A stretch of DNA of 15,253 bases from Actinomycetes bacterium. GTDB lineage: Bacteria > Actinomycetota > Actinomycetes > Propionibacteriales > Propionibacteriaceae. Within the stretch, counting starts at the first letter, position 1; each line of letters starts with the position of its first letter. The stretch spans positions 1-15,253 of the forward strand of contig JAJYQH010000112.1 in NCBI GenBank assembly GCA_021794705.1, read 5' to 3'. Shown here one piece after another: positions 4,690-15,253 of this stretch. Position numbers and translations under genes: made by a program. Under the pieces are notes generated by a model. That model did no database searches. It was not told the origin of the DNA and saw only the letters and a program-made list of their open reading frames with translations.

Positions 4690-5057
4690 GGGGGTGACTG
4701 GTTTCGACTTGGGACGGTAGTCCCAGGAGAAGCGGGCCGAGGATCCAGACTCAACTCGTTAACGATCGCCTGGAAACCAATAAGTGCCGACAACGCTCGC
4801 ACTGACTTCGCTCTCGCTGCCTGATCAGTGATCGAAGGGTCAGCCCGGATGTGCCTTCCGTCCGGATCCTGGCCTCATTCAGAAGGCTTGCTTGACGTTC
4901 CGCGCTCGGCGGATCGTCCGGGACATTAACCGAGCTGGGCTTGTCTGCAACATGCTGACGTGAGTGCAGGAGCCGAGTAGAACGTGATGTCAGCTGCGCC
5001 CGGAGAAGTCCTGGTTCGCCGCTCGAGGACGCGGGTTCAATTCCCGCCACCTCCACC
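4690..5057 (+). ncRNA. ssrA: Transfer-messenger RNA (tmRNA, one-piece form)
   Basis: The two ends form the tRNA-like domain: GGGGGTG at 4690-4696 pairs with CACCTCC at 5048-5054 (one G-U). The 5' end continues with the tmRNA hallmark GACTGGTTTCGAC. The T arm is GCGGG (5031-5035), loop TTCAATT, CCCGC (5043-5047). The discriminator is A5055, followed by CCC, so the terminal A of CCA is not encoded and must be added. Inside is the mRNA-like segment with the tag reading frame at 4786-4824, and GC-rich pseudoknot regions after it. With SmpB it rescues stalled ribosomes and tags the unfinished proteins for proteolysis. The length of about 365 bases and the single-piece order are normal for actinobacteria. 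Exact ends are set by pairing logic, not by experiment. Confidence 0.97.
4786..4824 (+). other. tmRNA proteolysis-tag reading frame (ADNARTDFALAA)
   Basis: The resume codon is GCC 4786, after the typical AATAAGT. Translation gives A-D-N-A-R-T-D-F-A-L-A-A and stops at TGA 4822-4824. The DFALAA ending is typical of actinobacterial tags and is the degron read by Clp proteases. The tag is part of ssrA and is not an independent gene. Confidence 0.95.
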
Positions 5058-5170: not shown

Positions 5171-5209
5171 TCTCGGCATTTGCCGTTGTCAGAGGCGAGG
5201 TCAGCGGGG

Positions 5210-6178
5210 ATGAGCAGACGTTCGCGACGAGGGGCGGGCCGCCCCTGGCTGTCGCTGGTTCTGGTGCTGGCGACCCTCGCCGCAGTCGCGGTGGCCGACA
5301 CCGGCACCGCCGCCGCGGCAACGACACCGCGCACGTTCGGCGTCACGCTTCCGGGCGTGCCCACCGATCTCTCGGGGCTGCAAGCCCTCCAGACCGAACT
5401 GGGTCACGATGCGCAGACGGTGATGTGGTACCAGGCCTGGTCGTCGGGGACCGGCTTCCCGGCTACCGCGGCGGCGCAGATCGCCGCGTCCGGCGCCACG
5501 CCGGAAGTCACCTGGGAGCCGTGGGATCCGTCCGCGGGGGTGGCGCAGCCGAAGTACGCGCTGGCGCGCATCGCCTCCGGCGCCTTCGACAGCTACATCT
5601 CGTCGTGGGCCCGGCAGATCCGCGGTTACGGCAAGCCGGTGATCCTCCGCTTCGCCCACGAGATGAACGGGAACTGGTACCCGTGGTCGGAGCAGGTCAA
5701 CGGAAACCGGCCCGGCGACTACGTCGCGGCGTGGCGGCACGTGCACGCCGTCTTCGACAAGAACACGGTGACGAACGTCACCTGGCTGTGGTCGCCGAAC
5801 GTCCCCTACGCCGGGTCGACGGATCTCGGCGAGCTGTACCCGGGGGACGCGTCGGTCGACGAGGTGGCGCTCGACGGGTACAACTGGAGCACCCTGCAGA
5901 CCGGGAGCACCTGGCAGTCGTTCGACCAGGTGTTCGACCCCGGGCTCGCGGCGGTGGAGAGTCTCACCACCCGACCGGTGTCGATCGGCGAGGTCGGCTG
6001 CCCCGAGGTGGGCGGCGACAAGCCCGCCTGGATCACCGACATGTTCTCGACGCTGTCGACCCGCACCGACATCCGGGGCTTCGTGTGGTTCGACTACACC
6101 AAGGAGACCGACTGGCGGATCGACAGCTCGGCGGGCTCCCTCGACGCGTTCGCCTCCGGCCTGTCCACGTTCCACTGA
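5210..6178 (+). CDS. Secreted glycoside hydrolase family 26-like enzyme (beta-mannanase/endoglucanase type)
   Basis: The 322-residue product begins with a twin-basic N-region and hydrophobic core (RPWLSLVLVLATLAAVAVA) and an Ala-rich cleavage area near residue 36, so it is exported. The rest is one TIM-barrel domain. The GH26 acid/base motif RFAHEMNGNWYPW has Glu151; the nucleophile motif SIGEVGCPE has Glu261. Their spacing of 110 residues matches known GH26 enzymes. The aromatic motifs VTWLWSPN and GFVWFDYTKETDWRID also fit. Family 26 members cleave beta-1,4-mannan or mixed beta-glucans; substrate cannot be told here. No carbohydrate-binding module is present. I chose ATG 5210 because GCGAGG (5195-5200) lies 9 bases before it; an earlier TTG at 5180 has no such site. 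It lies 68 bases before a polysaccharide synthase cluster and may trim that product. Confidence 0.88.
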   Translation: MSRRSRRGAGRPWLSLVLVLATLAAVAVADTGTAAAATTPRTFGVTLPGVPTDLSGLQALQTELGHDAQTVMWYQAWSSGTGFPATAAAQIAASGATPEVTWEPWDPSAGVAQPKYALARIASGAFDSYISSWARQIRGYGKPVILRFAHEMNGNWYPWSEQVNGNRPGDYVAAWRHVHAVFDKNTVTNVTWLWSPNVPYAGSTDLGELYPGDASVDEVALDGYNWSTLQTGSTWQSFDQVFDPGLAAVESLTTRPVSIGEVGCPEVGGDKPAWITDMFSTLSTRTDIRGFVWFDYTKETDWRIDSSAGSLDAFASGLSTFH

Positions 6179-6246: not shown

Positions 6247-7413
6247 GTGAGCGCAGCTGTTGAGCAGGCACGGATCGAGGAGATCGCGTCGCTGGGCCTG
6301 CTCGACGCACCCTCCGAGAGCCGCTTCGAGCGCATCGTGCGGCTCGCCTGCCGCATCCTCGACGTGCCGACGGCGCTGGTCACCCTCGTCGCCCAGGACC
6401 GGCAGTTCCACGTCGCGGAACAGGGGTTCGGCAGCCGGGAGATCCCACTGTCGCAGTCCTTCTGCCGCTACGTCGTGGACGACGACCGTCCGATGGAGGT
6501 GAGCGACGCCCGGCTCGATGAGCGGTTCCGGACCAACCCGTTGGTGACGGGGGACAGGTCCGTCCGGTTCTATGCCGGGCAGCCGCTGCACTCGCCCGGC
6601 GGGGTGCCGGTCGGGGCGTTGTGCATTCTCGACACGACGCCGCGCGCGCTCACCGAGGACCAGCGCGAACTGCTCGCCGACCTCGCCGGGCTCGTCCAGG
6701 AGGAACTGGGGCGCTCCGAGGAGTTCGACCGCGGCCGCGACGTGCAACTGCAGCTGCTGCCGAAATCCACCCCCGACCTGCCCGGGTACGAGATCGCCGG
6801 CGGTGCCGTGCCGGTCGGGCTGATGAGCGGCGACTTCTTCGACTGGTACCCCGTCGGCGACGCCCTGCAGGTCGTCGTCGCCGACGTCATGGGCAAGGGG
6901 GCGGGCGCGGCGATCATCGGTGCCGGCGTCCGGGCCGTCATGCGGGGGACCTCGCAGTACAACGAGCTGGACGAGGCGGTGCAGCGGCTGGCGGTGAGCA
7001 TGGAGTCCGACCTCGCCGAGACCGGAAGCTTCGTGACGATGTTCGCGGCACGTCTCGACCCCGTCCGGCACGAGCTGACCTACGTCGATGCGGGGCACGG
7101 CCTGGCCGGGACGGTCACCGCGGCGGGCGAGGCCCGCCTGCTCGACTGCGAGGGCCTGCCGATCGGCACCGTGACGCAGGGAGGGTGGCGGGCGGCGACC
7201 CATCGACTGCAACCCGGGGACACCTTCATCTGCCTGAGCGACGGGCTGCTCGATCTGTTCGACGACCTCGACGCCGCGGTCGCCGCCATCCGCCTCACGG
7301 CGCTGGAGAGCGGGCATGCGCAGGAGGTCGTCGACCGGGCCAAGGCCTACGCGCGGGGCCACGACGCCGCGGACGACGTGACGATCGTGGCGATCAGGAG
7401 AGTGGCGGCATGA
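6247..7413 (+). CDS. GAF domain-SpoIIE (PP2C-type) serine phosphatase
   Basis: This 388-residue cytoplasmic protein carries an N-terminal GAF sensor domain (about residues 10-160; SFCRYVVDD, DERFRTNPLV, VRFYAGQPL, GALCILD) and a C-terminal SpoIIE/RsbU-type phosphatase (about 165-388). Metal-binding motifs of the PP2C fold are intact: SGDFFDW (Asp196), VADVMGKGAGAA (Asp213), VDAGHG, LSDGLLD (Asp332) and DDVTIV (Asp376/377). Such enzymes dephosphorylate STAS proteins in partner-switching systems, with the GAF domain sensing a ligand or redox state. A STAS gene and a kinase-like gene lie downstream in the same run, so the STAS protein is the probable substrate (inferred). The start is GTG 6247, with GAGAGGGG at 6233-6240 and a 6-base spacer. 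The stop overlaps the next gene's ATG (ATGA). Confidence 0.93.
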   Translation: MSAAVEQARIEEIASLGLLDAPSESRFERIVRLACRILDVPTALVTLVAQDRQFHVAEQGFGSREIPLSQSFCRYVVDDDRPMEVSDARLDERFRTNPLVTGDRSVRFYAGQPLHSPGGVPVGALCILDTTPRALTEDQRELLADLAGLVQEELGRSEEFDRGRDVQLQLLPKSTPDLPGYEIAGGAVPVGLMSGDFFDWYPVGDALQVVVADVMGKGAGAAIIGAGVRAVMRGTSQYNELDEAVQRLAVSMESDLAETGSFVTMFAARLDPVRHELTYVDAGHGLAGTVTAAGEARLLDCEGLPIGTVTQGGWRAATHRLQPGDTFICLSDGLLDLFDDLDAAVAAIRLTALESGHAQEVVDRAKAYARGHDAADDVTIVAIRRVAA

Positions 7414-9359
7414 GACGCTGGCTGGTGCGGCTGCTGGTGCTGCTGACCCTCACCTTCGGGACCATCTACGTCGGCTGGCGGTGGGTCTTCTCGGTCAACT
7501 GGGCCAACTGGTGGATCGGCGTCCCCCTCGTCGTTGCGGAGACCTACAGCCTCATCGACGCGTACCTGTTCGGGCTGACCGTGTGGCGGCTCAGGGTTCG
7601 GGGTGAGCCGCCACCCCCGCCGGCCGACGCCACGGTCGACGTCTTCATCACCACCTACAACGAGCCGGTCGAGATGGTGCTCGCCACCGCGCTGGCCGCC
7701 CAGCGGATCGGGCACCCGCACGAGACCTGGATCCTCGACGACGGCGCCCGGGAGGACATGCGGGCCGCCGCCGAGGCCCATGGGGTGGGCTACATCACCC
7801 GGAGCGAGGATTGGCAGAACCGGCCGCGGCACGCCAAGGCGGGCAACCTCAACAACGCCCTGTTCCTCACCCACGGGGAGTTCATGCTCATCCTGGACGC
7901 CGACCAGGTGCCCGACCCGCTGATCCTCGACCGCACCCTGGGCTACTTCAGCGATCCCCGGGTCGCGCTGGTGCAGACCCCCCAGTGGTTCGTCAACGTC
8001 ACCGAGTCCGACCCGCTCGGCAGCCAGGCGCCGCTCTTCTACGGGCCGATCCAGCAGGGCAAGGACGGCTGGAACGCCGCGTTCTTCTGCGGTTCCAACG
8101 CGGTGCTGCGGCGCGAGGCGCTCATGCAACTCGGAATCGTCGGCTACGTGCGGGAGATGAGTGCGGCGGTCCGGGCGGCGTTGGACGCCGGCTCGCGCGT
8201 CATCGCCCGGGCGGTGCGACAGGCCCGGCGGGACGCCGACCCCGCACTGCCGGCCCTGCTCGGCGTCCAGCAGGCGGTGGGGCAGGCCCGGGAGCGGCTG
8301 GCGTCCGGCGACGCGGTCGCGGACGTGACCTACGAGTTCCAGCGTCAGGTCGACGAAGCCGCCCGGGGCCTCGTCTCGTCGGATCTGGCGGGCATCGAGG
8401 CCGACCTGCGGGCCATCCGGGCCCTGCCCGTCGACCATGACGACGAGCTGGGCGTGCTGGTCGTCGACGAGGCCGCGCTGGAGCGGCTGGCCGACCGGGA
8501 ATGGTCGCCGCTCGGGGCGATCGAGTCGGTGCGGGGGCTGCTCGCGGCCGTCGACGTCGACCGCGACGACGAGGCCCAGCCGATGATGCCGCTGGCGACG
8601 GTCTCGGTCACCGAGGACATGGCCACGTGCATGCGGCTGCACTCGCTCGGCTGGCGCTCGGTCTACCACCACGAGATCCTCGCCCACGGCCTCGCGCCGG
8701 AGGACCTGCGCACCATGCTGCAGCAGCGGCTCCGCTGGGCCCAGGGCACGATCCAGGTGATGCTGCGGGAGAACCCCCTGGTGCAGCGCGGGTTGAGCGT
8801 CGGCCAACGACTCATGTACTTCGCGACCATGTGGAGCTACCTGTCCGGGTTCGCCGCCCTCGTCTACATCGCCGCACCCGTCGTGTACCTCTGTTTCGGC
8901 GTGCTGCCCGTGCACGCGTTCGGCCTGCAGTTCCTCGAGCACTTCATCCCGTACATGCTGTTCAACCAGCTGCTGTTCCTCGTCGTGGGCTACGGGATCA
9001 GGACGTGGCGCGGCCAGCAGTACAGCCTGGCCCTGTTCCCGCTGTGGATCCGCGCCTGCGTCACCGCCGCGGCCAACGTGCTGTTCGGCAAGCCCCTCGG
9101 CTTCGTCGTCACGCCCAAGACGCGGCAGGCCCGGGGCGGGTTCCCCTGGCGGCTGATCCTGCCCCAGACCGTCGCCGTCGCCGTCCTGGTGCTCGCCTGC
9201 GCGATCGGCGTGTTGCGCCTGTGGACGGGGGCCAGCACCTCGACCATCGGTACGTTCGTCAACGTGGCCTGGGTCGCCTACGACCTGCTCGTGATGAGCG
9301 TCATCTTCCGGGCGGCCGCGTTCCGCGCCCCCGAAACCGACGACCAGAAGGTTGACTGA
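7410..9359 (+). CDS. Cellulose-synthase-like processive glycosyltransferase (GT2) with large catalytic-domain insertion, no PilZ domain
   Basis: The 649-residue membrane enzyme has two N-terminal membrane segments (about residues 4-24 and 35-57), a cytosolic GT-A domain, then five or six further segments. Catalytic motifs of BcsA-type synthases are complete: FITTYNE, ILDDGA (Asp110/111), DADQVP (Asp163, Asp165), FFCGSNAVLRREAL (from 225), VTEDMAT (Asp403) and QRLRW (Gln439-Trp443), plus GFVVTPK after the channel segments. It should polymerise a beta-linked polysaccharide from a UDP- or GDP-sugar and export it. Two oddities stand out: about 150 extra residues between FFCGS and TED, and no C-terminal PilZ domain for c-di-GMP. 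The start is ATG 7410, with AGGAGAG at 7396-7402, overlapping the phosphatase stop. The polymer is unknown; no BcsB-like gene is nearby. Confidence 0.93.
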   Translation: MRRWLVRLLVLLTLTFGTIYVGWRWVFSVNWANWWIGVPLVVAETYSLIDAYLFGLTVWRLRVRGEPPPPPADATVDVFITTYNEPVEMVLATALAAQRIGHPHETWILDDGAREDMRAAAEAHGVGYITRSEDWQNRPRHAKAGNLNNALFLTHGEFMLILDADQVPDPLILDRTLGYFSDPRVALVQTPQWFVNVTESDPLGSQAPLFYGPIQQGKDGWNAAFFCGSNAVLRREALMQLGIVGYVREMSAAVRAALDAGSRVIARAVRQARRDADPALPALLGVQQAVGQARERLASGDAVADVTYEFQRQVDEAARGLVSSDLAGIEADLRAIRALPVDHDDELGVLVVDEAALERLADREWSPLGAIESVRGLLAAVDVDRDDEAQPMMPLATVSVTEDMATCMRLHSLGWRSVYHHEILAHGLAPEDLRTMLQQRLRWAQGTIQVMLRENPLVQRGLSVGQRLMYFATMWSYLSGFAALVYIAAPVVYLCFGVLPVHAFGLQFLEHFIPYMLFNQLLFLVVGYGIRTWRGQQYSLALFPLWIRACVTAAANVLFGKPLGFVVTPKTRQARGGFPWRLILPQTVAVAVLVLACAIGVLRLWTGASTSTIGTFVNVAWVAYDLLVMSVIFRAAAFRAPETDDQKVD

Positions 9360-9360
9360 C

Positions 9361-9696
9361 ATGGACATGGAGACCCGTGACCTCGCCGACGGCGTGGGGC
9401 TGCTGGCGCTCGGCGGCAGACTGAACATGGTCTCGGCCCCGGGGGTGAAGGCGGCCATCGACGAGCTCATCGGCGGCGGCCGGCCGAGGGTGGTGGTCGA
9501 TCTCAGTTCCGTGAGCTTCATGGACTCCTCGGGCCTGGGCGCGCTCGTCGCCGGCCTCAAGCGGGCACGCCAGGCCCAGGGGGACCTGCGGATCTCCGGC
9601 GCCAACGAGCAGGTGCTCACGGTGCTGCGGCTGACCAACCTCGACCGGGTGCTGCGTCCCCGCGACACCGTCGAGGAGGCCGGCCGTGACTGGTGA
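9361..9696 (+). CDS. STAS domain protein (anti-anti-sigma factor-like, SpoIIAA/RsbV family)
   Basis: The 111-residue product is a single STAS domain of normal length. The phosphorylation site motif FMDSSGLGALVAGL is intact, with the Ser pair at residues 56-57; VVVDLSSVSF forms the strand before it and LRLTNLDRVL the usual C-terminal helix. In partner switching the unphosphorylated STAS protein binds and sequesters a kinase/anti-sigma factor, a kinase phosphorylates it, and a PP2C phosphatase reactivates it. Both partner types are encoded alongside. ATG 9361 is preferred because AGAAGG (9346-9351) lies 9 bases before it; TTG 9352 and ATG 9367 are other in-frame options. It begins one base after the glycosyltransferase stop codon, and its 3' end overlaps the next gene by 11 bases, so translation is probably coupled. 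Confidence 0.93.
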   Translation: MDMETRDLADGVGLLALGGRLNMVSAPGVKAAIDELIGGGRPRVVVDLSSVSFMDSSGLGALVAGLKRARQAQGDLRISGANEQVLTVLRLTNLDRVLRPRDTVEEAGRDW

Positions 9697-10123
9697 GTAC
9701 CGGATGGACGGCCTGGCGGTCCCCGAGTCGCTCGAGCAACTGCACGAGCTGCTCGAGAGGGTCCGCCGCGATCATCCGGACGTGGACGAGACCGCGCTCA
9801 TGATGTTCGAGACCGCGGTCGTCGAGATCCACGGCAACGTCATCCGGCACGGCCGTCCCCGGGGCAAGGTCTCCTATGAGTTCCGGCTCGAGGTGCAGGA
9901 CGACCGGCTCCGGGCGCACCTCACCACCGACGACGACGAGGTGCCCGACCTGTCGCACCTCCACGGCCTGGAGCCCGCCGATCCCATGGCCGAGAGCGGC
10001 CGCGGCCTGTGGTTGGCGGAGGCCATGCTCGACGAACTCCGCTATGCCAGGAGCGGGAACCACAACATCTGGACGATGGTGAAGCTGCTGGACTCGGTCT
10101 CGGGGGACGCCGGTCGCCCGTGA
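9686..10123 (+). CDS. RsbW/SpoIIAB-like ATP-binding protein (GHKL fold), possible serine kinase
   Basis: This 145-residue protein fits the small histidine-kinase-like ATPase family that acts as anti-sigma factor and STAS kinase. The N-box is clear: ETAVVEIHGNVIRHGRP, with Glu47, Asn51 and His55. The glycine-rich lid is ESGRGLWLAEAM (about residues 103-114), and NHNIWTMVKLL is the usual last strand. The central Asp-x-Gly box is degenerate: the expected place reads TTDDDEVPDL, with no glycine, so ATP binding may be altered. The start is GTG 9686, with GAGGAGG at 9673-9679 and a 6-base spacer, overlapping the STAS gene. An ATG at 9704 is less likely. No sigma factor gene is adjacent, so its downstream target is open. 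Confidence 0.85.
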   Translation: MTGEYRMDGLAVPESLEQLHELLERVRRDHPDVDETALMMFETAVVEIHGNVIRHGRPRGKVSYEFRLEVQDDRLRAHLTTDDDEVPDLSHLHGLEPADPMAESGRGLWLAEAMLDELRYARSGNHNIWTMVKLLDSVSGDAGRP

Positions 10124-12178: not shown

Positions 12179-12236
12179 CCTGTCGACGGGCCGCCGCCCG
12201 TTCTGACAAGCCGGCGCAGGCTGAGGAGAAGTGGGC

Positions 12237-12959
12237 ATGTCCGAAGTCGGACGCGGTTCCCGGAACCGCATCCTCGTCGTCGACGACGACGTCGCCCTCG
12301 CCGAGATGCTCCAGATCGTGCTCCGGCAGGAGGGCTTCGAAACCATCTGGTGCGCGACCGGCGAGCGCGCGCTCAGCGCCTTCCACGAGGTGCGGCCCGA
12401 CCTCGTGCTGCTCGACCTCATGCTCCCCGGTCGCGACGGCATCGACGTGTGCCGGGACATCCGCAACGAGTCGGACGTGCCGATCATCATGCTCACCGCC
12501 AAGAGCGACACCGTCGACGTCGTCGTCGGTCTCGAGGCGGGCGCCGACGACTACGTGTCGAAGCCGTTCAAGGCCAAGGAGCTCATTGCCCGCATCCGCA
12601 CCCGGCTGCGCCGGGTGGCGAGCTACGCCGAGGACGACTCCGGCACCTTCCAGATCGGTGACATCACCATCAACACCCAGGGCCACAAGGTGCTGCGGGG
12701 CAACGTGGCGATCCAGCTGACCCCCCTGGAGTTCGACCTGCTGCTCGCCCTCGCTCGCAAGCCCCGCCAGGTGTTCAGCCGGGAGGTGCTGCTGGAGGAG
12801 GTCTGGGGGTACCGCCACGCCGCCGACACCCGGCTGGTGAACGTGCACGTGCAGCGCCTGCGCTCCAAGATCGAGAAGGATCCGGAGCATCCCGAGATCG
12901 TGGTCACCGTCCGCGGGATCGGTTACCGTGCCGGGGAGCCGGCCGATGCCCTCCGCTGA
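12237..12959 (+). CDS. mtrA: Two-component response regulator MtrA (OmpR/PhoB family)
   Basis: The 240-residue regulator has a receiver domain (residues 10-125) with acidic pocket Asp16-18, phosphoacceptor Asp60 in VLLDLMLPGRDG, Thr87 and Lys109 (SKPF). A winged-helix DNA-binding domain follows (about 140-235; LTPLEFDLLLALARKP, REVLLEEVWGY, RLVNVHVQRLRSKIE, VRGIGYRAG). The sequence is strongly MtrA-like, and the mtrB-lpqB genes downstream settle the name. MtrA controls cell-wall, division and osmotic genes in actinobacteria. ATG 12237 is preferred: GAGGAG (12223-12228) lies 8 bases before it, while the in-frame GTG 12231 is only 2 bases from that site. The gap of 33 bases to mtrB implies one transcript. 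Confidence 0.97.
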   Translation: MSEVGRGSRNRILVVDDDVALAEMLQIVLRQEGFETIWCATGERALSAFHEVRPDLVLLDLMLPGRDGIDVCRDIRNESDVPIIMLTAKSDTVDVVVGLEAGADDYVSKPFKAKELIARIRTRLRRVASYAEDDSGTFQIGDITINTQGHKVLRGNVAIQLTPLEFDLLLALARKPRQVFSREVLLEEVWGYRHAADTRLVNVHVQRLRSKIEKDPEHPEIVVTVRGIGYRAGEPADALR

Positions 12960-12992
12960 CGGCGTTCCCTCAGTGTCGCGGTCGTCATCCCG

Positions 12993-14573
12993 ATGAAACC
13001 GCCGATCACCCGGGTCGTCCGCGCGCCGGCGCGCGCGTGGCTCACCTCGCTCCCGTTCCGCGTCATCGTCTCGACCTTCGTCGCCTCGGTCATCATCATG
13101 GTGCTCGGCGGCTTCCTCCTCGTGCGCCAGGCGTCCACCGGCATCCTCGCCGCGAAGCGCCAGGCGAGCATCCAGGAGGCGTCCACCGCTCTCGACCGGA
13201 TGCAGCAGGAGTTGCGTCTGTCCAACTCCGACAGCAGCTCCATCTACGAGCGGCTCAACCAGCTGGCCATCGAGGTCGGATCGCAGGCGGGGCAGTACCG
13301 GATCATCATCCAGGGCCCGGTGTCGGGCTACGCCTCCGTGGGGATCGACGCCGCGACCGTCCCCGACAACCTCGCCCAGGCCGTCCAGCAGGGCGGCGGC
13401 ATGTACCTCGCGTCCACCATGGTGCGCTACACGCAGCCCGGCCTGGCCGACGAGCCGGGGCTGGTGGTGGGCTCCCAGCTCTACGCCCCGTCGGTCGGGG
13501 AGTCCTACCCGGTCTACTTCATCTTCCCGGAGGGGAAGGAGGTCCAGACCCTCGACGTCGTCCAGGGCGCCGCCGCCAGCACGGGCGCCCTGCTGACCCT
13601 GGCCCTCACGATCATGGCCGGGCTCGTCACCCGCCAGGTGGTCGGACCCGTGCGCCGGGCCAGCCTCGCCGCGGAGCGGTTGGCCTCGGGCCACCTCAAC
13701 GAGCGGATGGACGTGCGCGGCACGACCGAGCTGGCCAGCCTCGGCCGATCGATCAACAACATGGCCGCGGAGATCCAGCGGCAGATCGGGCAGCTGGAGG
13801 AGCTCTCCCGGGTGCAGCAGCAGTTCGTCTCGGACGTCTCGCACGAACTGCGGACGCCCCTCACCACCGTGAAGATGGCCGCCGAGCTGCTGTACGACCA
13901 GCGCGACGAGTTCGACGTGAGCGAGGCCCGCTCGGCCGAGCTCATGCACGCCGAACTCGAGCGGTTCGAGGGCCTGCTCGGCGACCTGCTCGAGATCTCC
14001 CGCTTCGACGCGGGCGCGGCCGTGCTCACGCTCGACGAGACCGACCTCGCGAGTGTCGTGCGGGCCGAGGTGGAGGCCCAGCAGCCGTTCGCCGACCGAC
14101 TGCACACCCGGCTCAGCGTGCACGTGCGGGGGGACACGACCGCGGAGATGGACGCCCGCCGGGTCCGGCGCATCCTGCGCAACCTCATCACCAACGCCAT
14201 CGAGCACGGCGAGCGGCGGCCGATCGTCATCACCGTCGCCGGCGACGAGCAGGCGGTGGCGGTCACCGTGCGCGACCACGGGGTGGGCTTCCTGCCGAGC
14301 CAGAACACCCAGGTGTTCCACCGCTTCTGGCGGGCCGACCCCAGCCGCACCCGCACCGTGGGGGGCACCGGCCTCGGCCTGGCGATCGCCCTCGAGGACG
14401 CCCGGCTGCACGGGGGGTGGCTGTCGGCGTGGGGCCGGCCCCGCAAGGGCGCCCAGTTCCGCCTCACGCTGCCCCGGCGGCACGGGCAGATCCTCACCGG
14501 CTCCCCGCTGCCCCTGGCACCGGTCGACGTGATGCCGCCGGCCCGGAGCTTCTCCTCCCGGGAGCTCGCATGA
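12993..14573 (+). CDS. mtrB: Sensor histidine kinase MtrB
   Basis: The 526-residue kinase has a first membrane segment at about residues 23-43 (IVSTFVASVIIMVLGGFLLV), an extracytoplasmic domain of about 150 residues, a second segment near 195-216, a HAMP linker, then the kinase core. The H-box SDVSHELRTPLTT puts the phosphorylated His at residue 284. The N-box NLITNAIEHG (about 397-406), DHGVGF and GGTGLGLAIA complete the ATPase. It phosphorylates MtrA. The short Pro/Ser-rich C-terminal tail after residue 495 is common in MtrB. ATG 12993 is the only usual start codon after an in-frame stop at 12957-12959, yet no Shine-Dalgarno sequence precedes it. Its stop overlaps the lpqB ATG. Confidence 0.97.
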   Translation: MKPPITRVVRAPARAWLTSLPFRVIVSTFVASVIIMVLGGFLLVRQASTGILAAKRQASIQEASTALDRMQQELRLSNSDSSSIYERLNQLAIEVGSQAGQYRIIIQGPVSGYASVGIDAATVPDNLAQAVQQGGGMYLASTMVRYTQPGLADEPGLVVGSQLYAPSVGESYPVYFIFPEGKEVQTLDVVQGAAASTGALLTLALTIMAGLVTRQVVGPVRRASLAAERLASGHLNERMDVRGTTELASLGRSINNMAAEIQRQIGQLEELSRVQQQFVSDVSHELRTPLTTVKMAAELLYDQRDEFDVSEARSAELMHAELERFEGLLGDLLEISRFDAGAAVLTLDETDLASVVRAEVEAQQPFADRLHTRLSVHVRGDTTAEMDARRVRRILRNLITNAIEHGERRPIVITVAGDEQAVAVTVRDHGVGFLPSQNTQVFHRFWRADPSRTRTVGGTGLGLAIALEDARLHGGWLSAWGRPRKGAQFRLTLPRRHGQILTGSPLPLAPVDVMPPARSFSSRELA

Positions 14574-15253
14574 CCAGCCGTCCTTCGCGCCTGCGCCTCC
14601 TGCTGCCGCTCGCCGTCCTGGCCGCCCTGCTGACCGGCTGTGCCGGCGTCCCCACCGCCGGCCCCGTCGAGCAGGTCAGCCCGAACGTCCGCCAGACGCA
14701 GGACAGCGGCGTTCGGATCGACGCCGAGCCGCCGCGCCCGGACGCCACACCCGAGCGGATCGTCGCGGGGTTCCTCAGCGCCATGGCCAGCCTGCAGCCG
14801 GGGTTCGACGTGGCCAAGCTCTACCTCACCGACCGCGCCCGGCAGCGATGGGACCCGGGCAGCGGCACGACGATCATCGACGCGAGCGCCGAGCAACTGG
14901 TGGCGACCCCGTCCTCGGAACTGCTCGACGCGCCGATCGTGGGCCAGCTCACCCGGGCCGGACGGTACCAGTCGGTGGGCGGCCAGTTCCGTCACGACTT
15001 CGGGCTGACCAAGGTGAAGGGCCAGTGGCGGATCTCCAGCCCACCCCCGGGACTGGTCATCACGACGAGCACGTTCGGGTCGTACTACGTGTCGATGCAG
15101 CGGTACTTCCTCACCCCGGACGGGTCACGGGTCGTGCCCGAGACGCTGCGCGTCCCCGCCCAGGACTTCACGCCCGGCCGCGCCGTCCGTGCCCTGCTCG
15201 AGGGACCCTCGTCGTGGCTCGCGCCGGCGGTCACCACCGCGATCCCCGCGAGC
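14570..15253 (+). CDS. lpqB: Lipoprotein LpqB (3' end outside window)
   Basis: The frame is open from ATG 14570 to the right edge (228 codons seen), overlapping the mtrB stop by 4 bases, with GGGAG at 14560-14564 as ribosome site. The N-terminus is a lipoprotein signal peptide with lipobox LLTGC, so Cys24 would be lipid-modified. After the LpqB-typical GVPTAGPV comes an NTF2-like region (PERIVAGFLSAM to SSPPPGL). A GerMN domain begins near residue 185 (VPETLRVP, AVRALLEGPSSWL, VTTAIP). Known LpqB proteins end with a beta-propeller-like domain, which should lie beyond the window. LpqB interacts with MtrB outside the membrane and modulates the MtrAB system. The call rests on both sequence and operon position. 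Confidence 0.96.
   Translation, partial: MTSRPSRLRLLLPLAVLAALLTGCAGVPTAGPVEQVSPNVRQTQDSGVRIDAEPPRPDATPERIVAGFLSAMASLQPGFDVAKLYLTDRARQRWDPGSGTTIIDASAEQLVATPSSELLDAPIVGQLTRAGRYQSVGGQFRHDFGLTKVKGQWRISSPPPGLVITTSTFGSYYVSMQRYFLTPDGSRVVPETLRVPAQDFTPGRAVRALLEGPSSWLAPAVTTAIPAS

Follow-up and report, generated by a model that had tools for sequence, protein, structure and literature searches.

Trios of phosphatase, STAS protein and ATPase such as RsbU/V/W and SpoIIE/SpoIIAA/SpoIIAB classically control sigma factors, and BcsA-type polysaccharide synthases are best known as being gated by cyclic di-GMP (c-di-GMP). What, then, is controlled when a trio of this kind is built around the gene of a BcsA-like synthase? 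The question is raised by a stretch of 15,253 nucleotides (here the window; contig JAJYQH010000112.1 of assembly GCA_021794705.1, an actinomycete of the Propionibacteriaceae), in which the gene for a glycosyltransferase of family 2 (GT2) lies between those for an RsbU-like phosphatase and for STAS and RsbW-like proteins. It is probable that this cassette is a post-translational control unit of a processive glycan synthase, with the STAS protein as the switched subunit of the GT2. The four genes, and the predicted site of the switch, are as follows.

6247..7413, + strand: GAF-SpoIIE/PP2C phosphatase, RsbU-like, the input arm (PF07228, E 3.8e-30; PF01590, E 2.8e-15)
7410..9359, + strand: BcsA-like GT2 polysaccharide synthase of 649 amino acids, without PilZ (TIGR03030 CelA, 347 bits)
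9361..9696, + strand: STAS protein, SpoIIAA/RsbV-like (PF01740, E 2.2e-20; TIGR00377 above cut-off)
9526..9528, + strand: codon of Ser56 of the STAS protein, the predicted phospho-serine (profile alignment to SpoIIAA structures)
9686..10123, + strand: RsbW/SpoIIAB-like ATPase, the predicted STAS kinase (PF13581, E 3.9e-13)

The initial annotation had described these genes as an overlapping run in which the trio flanks the synthase, with the phosphatase and GT2 overlapping by 4 bases, GT2 and STAS separated by 1, and STAS and ATPase overlapping by 11. Domain matches and coordinates agree with this, and all three junctions are exact. The phosphorylation site of the STAS protein, which had been called intact, is indeed so, as DSSG (residues 55–58) aligns with FMDSSGLG of SpoIIAA, where the serine matching Ser56 is presumably the phosphorylated residue of that protein. 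Nor is a sigma factor gene seen among the genes of the run, as had been stated. Residues of the switch proteins are conserved among their relatives: DSS is kept in 151/151 distinct cassette STAS proteins, the N-box E and N of the ATPase in 156/156 distinct relatives (GRG in 154/156, the G1 box being degenerate), and the first Asp of GDFFD and the Asp of ADVMGKG of the phosphatase in 157/157, its other aspartates being kept in 149–150 of these. Profile matches of the ATPase include structures of RsbW (6m36_A, E 2.5e-10) and of SpoIIAB.

A scan of genome contigs gave 483 relatives; the 80 best were taken further, and more were added from further genome searches. There are 205 loci (L numbers, with G numbers for genomes) in which the GT2 has a full-length helical insert, described below, representing 186 distinct GT2s as some loci are duplicates; L268–L287 are outside this count. 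Partners were counted in the stretch around each GT2 only, leaving out the third GT2 copy of G110. All three are present around 156 of the 186 distinct GT2s, the others having STAS and RsbW (16, with PP2C out of view, 15 of these in stretches under 5 kb), RsbW only (3), STAS only (1), PP2C and STAS (1), PP2C only, at a contig end (1), or no partner in view (8). The gene order is more than chance, because that of the window recurs in 143/156 distinct complete cassettes, and an order confined to this strain, which would have refuted the initial annotation, is thereby excluded; the phosphatase is last in 8 and the remaining 5 are otherwise arranged. Any further neighbour family is present in at most 17/80 large loci. 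The family is patchy, with a match at E 1e-60 in 23/394 genomes of the class and 9/138 genera.

Several loci show variant forms. At L285 (2752–7361), a GT2-STAS-RsbW set is accompanied by another STAS and by a protein that is an RsbW-GAF-PP2C fusion, and L250 has a fusion resembling it, cut by the locus start. In Microbacterium ureisolvens (L066, 11224–12669) the cassette STAS and RsbW are in one open frame, which is either a fusion or a frameshift. Decaying cassettes are present at L197, where the GT2 has an in-frame stop, and at L213, where a GT2 fragment lies near a phosphatase fragment.

Synthase and trio also occur together where they are not linked. Within the taxonomic order to which the window belongs, 47/293 genomes have a GT2 match at E 1e-60, two of them (G011, G265) with a short insert, and the full-insert GT2 and the cassette STAS are found in exactly the same 45/293; within some genera there are genomes with both and genomes with neither. 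These whole-genome searches scored the first 4 candidates per genome for GT2 and the first 17 for STAS, and the alignment used to search for STAS includes sequences from the window and from some of the counted genomes. By whole-genome search the cassette STAS is present in 0/21 genomes without a full-insert GT2 (best match 84 bits) and, in a second such test, in 0/5 short-insert genomes; of 25 genomes lacking any GT2 match at 1e-100 it is absent in 24, the exception being G907, described below. All 8 distinct GT2s seen without any partner belong to genomes that have the trio at another place. In G110, G861, and G708 the partnerless GT2 is a second copy and the genome also has a complete cassette, while in G871, G816, G830, G261, and G141 the trio was found by whole-genome search, at about 2 kb from the GT2 in G871 and at 1.44 Mb on a single contig in G261. 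In each of the three genomes where the GT2 has RsbW and no adjacent STAS, the STAS is found elsewhere. At L277 and L279 a STAS is present with no RsbW or PP2C within 11–13 kb; at a different site, the L277 genome has another STAS, there accompanied by RsbW and PP2C.

G010 has a second STAS of the cassette type (127 bits) at L297 (5600–5932), with no GT2, RsbW, or PP2C match in 11 kb.

The GT2s whose insert has 110–117 residues, with or without a fused STAS domain, group together (98/100) as a sister clade of the full-insert GT2s, and the insert-less GT2s separate in the tree (100/100); the tree gives no direction as to gain or loss of the switch. Ten stretches of 13–19 kb were sampled from this sister clade (L141, L142, L209–L211, L269–L273), and cassette-type RsbW or PP2C is present in 0/10 of them. 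In eight, a STAS-like gene lies directly 3' of the GT2 (7 above the Pfam cut-off, L271 by hidden Markov model (HMM) only), and in L272 and L273 the GT2 protein itself carries the STAS at its C-terminus, above the Pfam cut-off. With L273 as query, 4358 database matches were obtained; among the 120 listed, a C-terminal STAS is found by custom HMMs in 46/46 relatives of at least 735 amino acids (31 also by precomputed Pfam) and in 0/74 shorter ones, and the names listed include Pseudoclavibacter, Bifidobacterium, Mycolicibacterium, and Mycobacterium. Two of three fused proteins scanned fall below the Pfam STAS cut-off (18.4 and 18.3 against 22.6 bits), and the divergence is therefore large. STAS is present in 0/8 insert-less GT2 regions and in 0/14 insert-less loci with 1.5 kb flanks; a single weak PP2C match (28 bits) lies in L160.

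The 10 short-clade loci, among them L272 and L273, served to train the short-STAS HMM, and the 56 aligned rows of short or fused STAS represent 55 distinct proteins (L273 being P0121). At position 55 Asp is found in 0/56 rows, and position 56 is Pro in 42, Ser in 7, and Ala in 7. In the clade that lacks kinase and phosphatase the STAS stays with the GT2, even as one chain, which would make the STAS a GT2 subunit; the lineage with the phospho-motif keeps both enzymes alongside, so that these would act on the synthase by way of the STAS. Judged by their sequences, the related genomes with STAS fused to the synthase suggest that the switch may control the enzyme itself. One of the two possibilities raised in the initial annotation, direct gating of the synthase through a predicted binding, thus gains strong though indirect support from the unlinked co-occurrence and from the GT2-STAS adjacency and fusion in the sister clade.

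The GT2 itself has the BcsA fold, with the core, the membrane part, and the catalytic motifs all present. It is below the NCBIfam cut-off for TIGR03030 CelA (347 against 699 bits), no PilZ was found by Pfam scan, and the BcsA match stops at residue 700 of the BcsA chain. It carries an insert, which like the lack of PilZ had not featured in the initial annotation.

8136..8597, + strand: helical insert of the GT2, residues 243–396 (154 residues), between FFCGS and TED
8364..8528, + strand: part of the insert, residues 319–373, seen only in the clade with kinase and phosphatase

Residues 243–396 are skipped in 14/14 insert-less relatives, and the short-insert GT2s align to about residue 311–326 and resume at about 367–375, with 319–373 missing. 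The insert has no match by Pfam scan. In a model of the whole GT2 its predicted local distance difference test (pLDDT) values are 71–91 at residues 241–320 and 41–74 at 321–390; folded alone, residues 246–315 or thereabouts reach 87–96. It is proposed as a docking module, and the STAS, rather than the ATPase, is proposed as the contact to the synthase.

Co-variation of distances was compared over 112 non-redundant cassettes, with GT2 core and membrane distances removed. The part of the insert shared by both clades follows the STAS best, at 0.38 (half-sample standard deviation 0.05), ahead of insert and RsbW (0.28), STAS and RsbW (0.27, a known kind of contact), and STAS and PP2C (0.13), and residues 319–373 against RsbW give 0.08. 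By mutual information with average product correction (MI-APC), 21 of the 100 highest-scoring pairs between proteins join insert and STAS (3-fold).

According to the reading favoured here, the STAS protein would be a GT2 subunit that docks on the helical insert, and the active state would be unphosphorylated STAS bound to the GT2. The RsbW-like ATPase would phosphorylate Ser56, breaking or blocking the contact, and the GAF-SpoIIE phosphatase would, upon signal, take the phosphate off again. Bound STAS is probably permissive, since STAS without the usual phospho-motif stays attached in several genera; SiaC is likewise permissive for SiaD (PMC8457831), and unphosphorylated SypA favours biofilm formation (PMC8256260, PMC11112999). 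The sequences show the gene content, the residues, the order, the co-occurrence, and the natural fusions; we infer the binding, the kinase and phosphatase activities, the direction of control, and the product alike. Somewhat more guardedly, it is reasonable to expect that among actinobacterial BcsA-like synthases, patchy over many families, PilZ/c-di-GMP control has been replaced by a STAS subunit, which would be switched in one clade by a co-evolving kinase and phosphatase and locked on or fused in the sister clade.

A number of observations weigh against this interpretation. The cassette counts are not phylogenetically independent, and the G1 box of the ATPase is degenerate. In G907 (L295, 7341–10523) there is an orphan cassette-type STAS with RsbW and a reversed PP2C, and no GT2 relative was found in a search that had no positive control. 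At L279 (G1093) RsbW and PP2C are absent within 11.5 kb, the search being limited to that stretch. Ser56 is kept in 7/56 short or fused STAS rows. The short-clade STAS scores 26–36 bits by the cassette STAS HMM in 5 loci and is undetected in 5, and the nearest STAS proteins of genomes without GT2 score 77–86 bits; common descent of the two GT2-STAS pairings is not shown, because the short-clade STAS is so far from that of the cassette. Finally, when the 1000 highest-scoring MI-APC pairs are taken, insert-STAS accounts for 77 (1.1-fold). Among the first 100, insert-RsbW pairs are just as many (21), those of the STAS-RsbW control number only 12, and the pair ranked highest links the membrane part with the STAS, for which reasons no contact is claimed from MI-APC.

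It is unlikely that the STAS docks on the GT2 and holds the synthase off, with phosphorylation by RsbW freeing it. The co-occurrence and fusion data fit any STAS-GT2 contact, and hence this one too, yet a fused STAS without the phospho-motif would lock the synthase off, and such fusions are kept in several genera. Equally doubtful is a partner switch acting on the enzyme, in which RsbW would bind and withhold the GT2, in the way known for sigma factors, until unphosphorylated STAS draws RsbW off. That residues 319–373 are seen only in the clade with RsbW, and that the shared insert co-varies with RsbW as well (0.28, and 21 of the top 100 MI-APC pairs), would suit this; but residues 319–373 do not themselves track RsbW, and the sister clade keeps the STAS with the GT2 where no RsbW is nearby.

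The other possibility in the initial annotation was a remote sigma factor. TIGR02980 (SigB/F/G) was searched over 47 cassette genomes, leaving out locus L036, and the results concern SigB/F/G-type classes only. The listed matches form two groups, of 184–315 bits and of 143 bits or less, the lower of which is read as the level of housekeeping sigma factors. A match above 180 bits is present in 28/47 genomes, with 13/47 above the curated cut-off; in 19/47, including the Microbacterium sufflavum chromosome record, no match exceeds the housekeeping level. Of 12 full-insert genomes at least 90% complete, 9 have a match in the high group, the others being G038, G050, and G054 (G038 appears to be G098 of the 47, which is one of the 19). 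In the genome from which the window comes (389 contigs, 59.6% completeness), the best match reaches 131.5 bits. On these sequences a SigB/F/G-type sigma factor is not needed by the cassette, since 19/47 cassette genomes have housekeeping-level matches only, and this arm of the annotation is weakened, though 28/47 do have a higher match. That the trio controls an unlinked sigma factor for polysaccharide or other genes, with the GT2 linked as a regulatory convenience, is accordingly most improbable: the classical role of such trios, the 28 genomes, and the orphan trio of G907 speak for it, and the 19 (with 3/12 of the nearly complete genomes), the co-occurrence of trio and full-insert GT2 even when unlinked, and the GT2-STAS fusions against it.

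The cassette shares with Bacillus RsbU/V/W and SpoIIE/AA/AB a PP2C phosphatase, a STAS with the DSSG serine, and a GHKL ATPase (profile matches 1th8, 1tid, 6m36). It differs from them in that the run has no sigma factor, the synthase gene lies between phosphatase and STAS, and the partner of the STAS would be the GT2. Fold and catalytic motifs are as in BcsA, but PilZ is absent, there is an extra helical insert, and c-di-GMP control is putatively replaced by the STAS. SypE combines kinase, receiver, and phosphatase in one protein, whereas the window has one gene for the kinase and another for the phosphatase. In Vibrio fischeri, unphosphorylated SypA, a STAS protein, favours biofilm that depends on polysaccharide, and is considered unlikely to work as an ordinary anti-sigma antagonist; the accessible parts of these papers mention no synthase-STAS pair or fusion, and give the SypA target as unknown (PMC11112999, PMC8256260). 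In the accessible part of the work on Pseudomonas aeruginosa SiaABCD, the phosphorylation state of SiaC, a small protein, is governed by a phosphatase and a kinase; unless phosphorylated, SiaC binds the helical stalk of SiaD and activates that enzyme (PMC8457831). The likeness to the cassette would be in working only, as the target there is a diguanylate cyclase and here a BcsA-like synthase.

In the literature searched, where subscription papers are thinly covered, no title or abstract describes the cassette or a GT2-STAS fusion, and the accessible parts of the two papers that mention both cellulose synthase and a STAS domain describe neither; the novelty of the cassette is bounded by this coverage. 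If the interpretation of the STAS as a GT2 subunit is correct, a serine-phosphorylation gate taken from a sigma factor switch would be a second control principle for such synthases in many actinobacterial families, and for orphan RsbU/V/W trios there would be a definite target other than transcription. With the locked and fused forms, it can be tested directly in which direction the control works.

One further gene, also beyond the initial annotation, precedes the cassette.

5180..6178, + strand: GH26 glycoside hydrolase of 332 amino acids (PF02156, E 1.8e-14)

Its end is 68 bases from the phosphatase start, on the same strand, such that GH26, phosphatase, GT2, STAS, and ATPase are five same-strand genes between the transfer-messenger RNA (tmRNA) gene (4690–5057) and a GyrI-like gene. 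GH26 is found above 100 bits by custom HMM in 12/80 large cassette loci, and GH26-like open reading frames are beside the GT2 in 10/10 sister-clade stretches. We infer an accessory, BcsZ-like role for it, and because of this neighbour the GT2 product is perhaps a mixed-linkage or mannan-type glycan.

In a pattern scan of the window no site resembling a promoter came up, and a single terminator-like one lies on the opposite strand, where shuffles give 1.1. The tmRNA gene is directly upstream of the GH26-cassette run, and 37/80 other large cassette loci have no tmRNA. At 12231–15253 of the window there are response regulator and histidine kinase genes, which we take to be mtrA and mtrB, the frame that follows presumably being lpqB.

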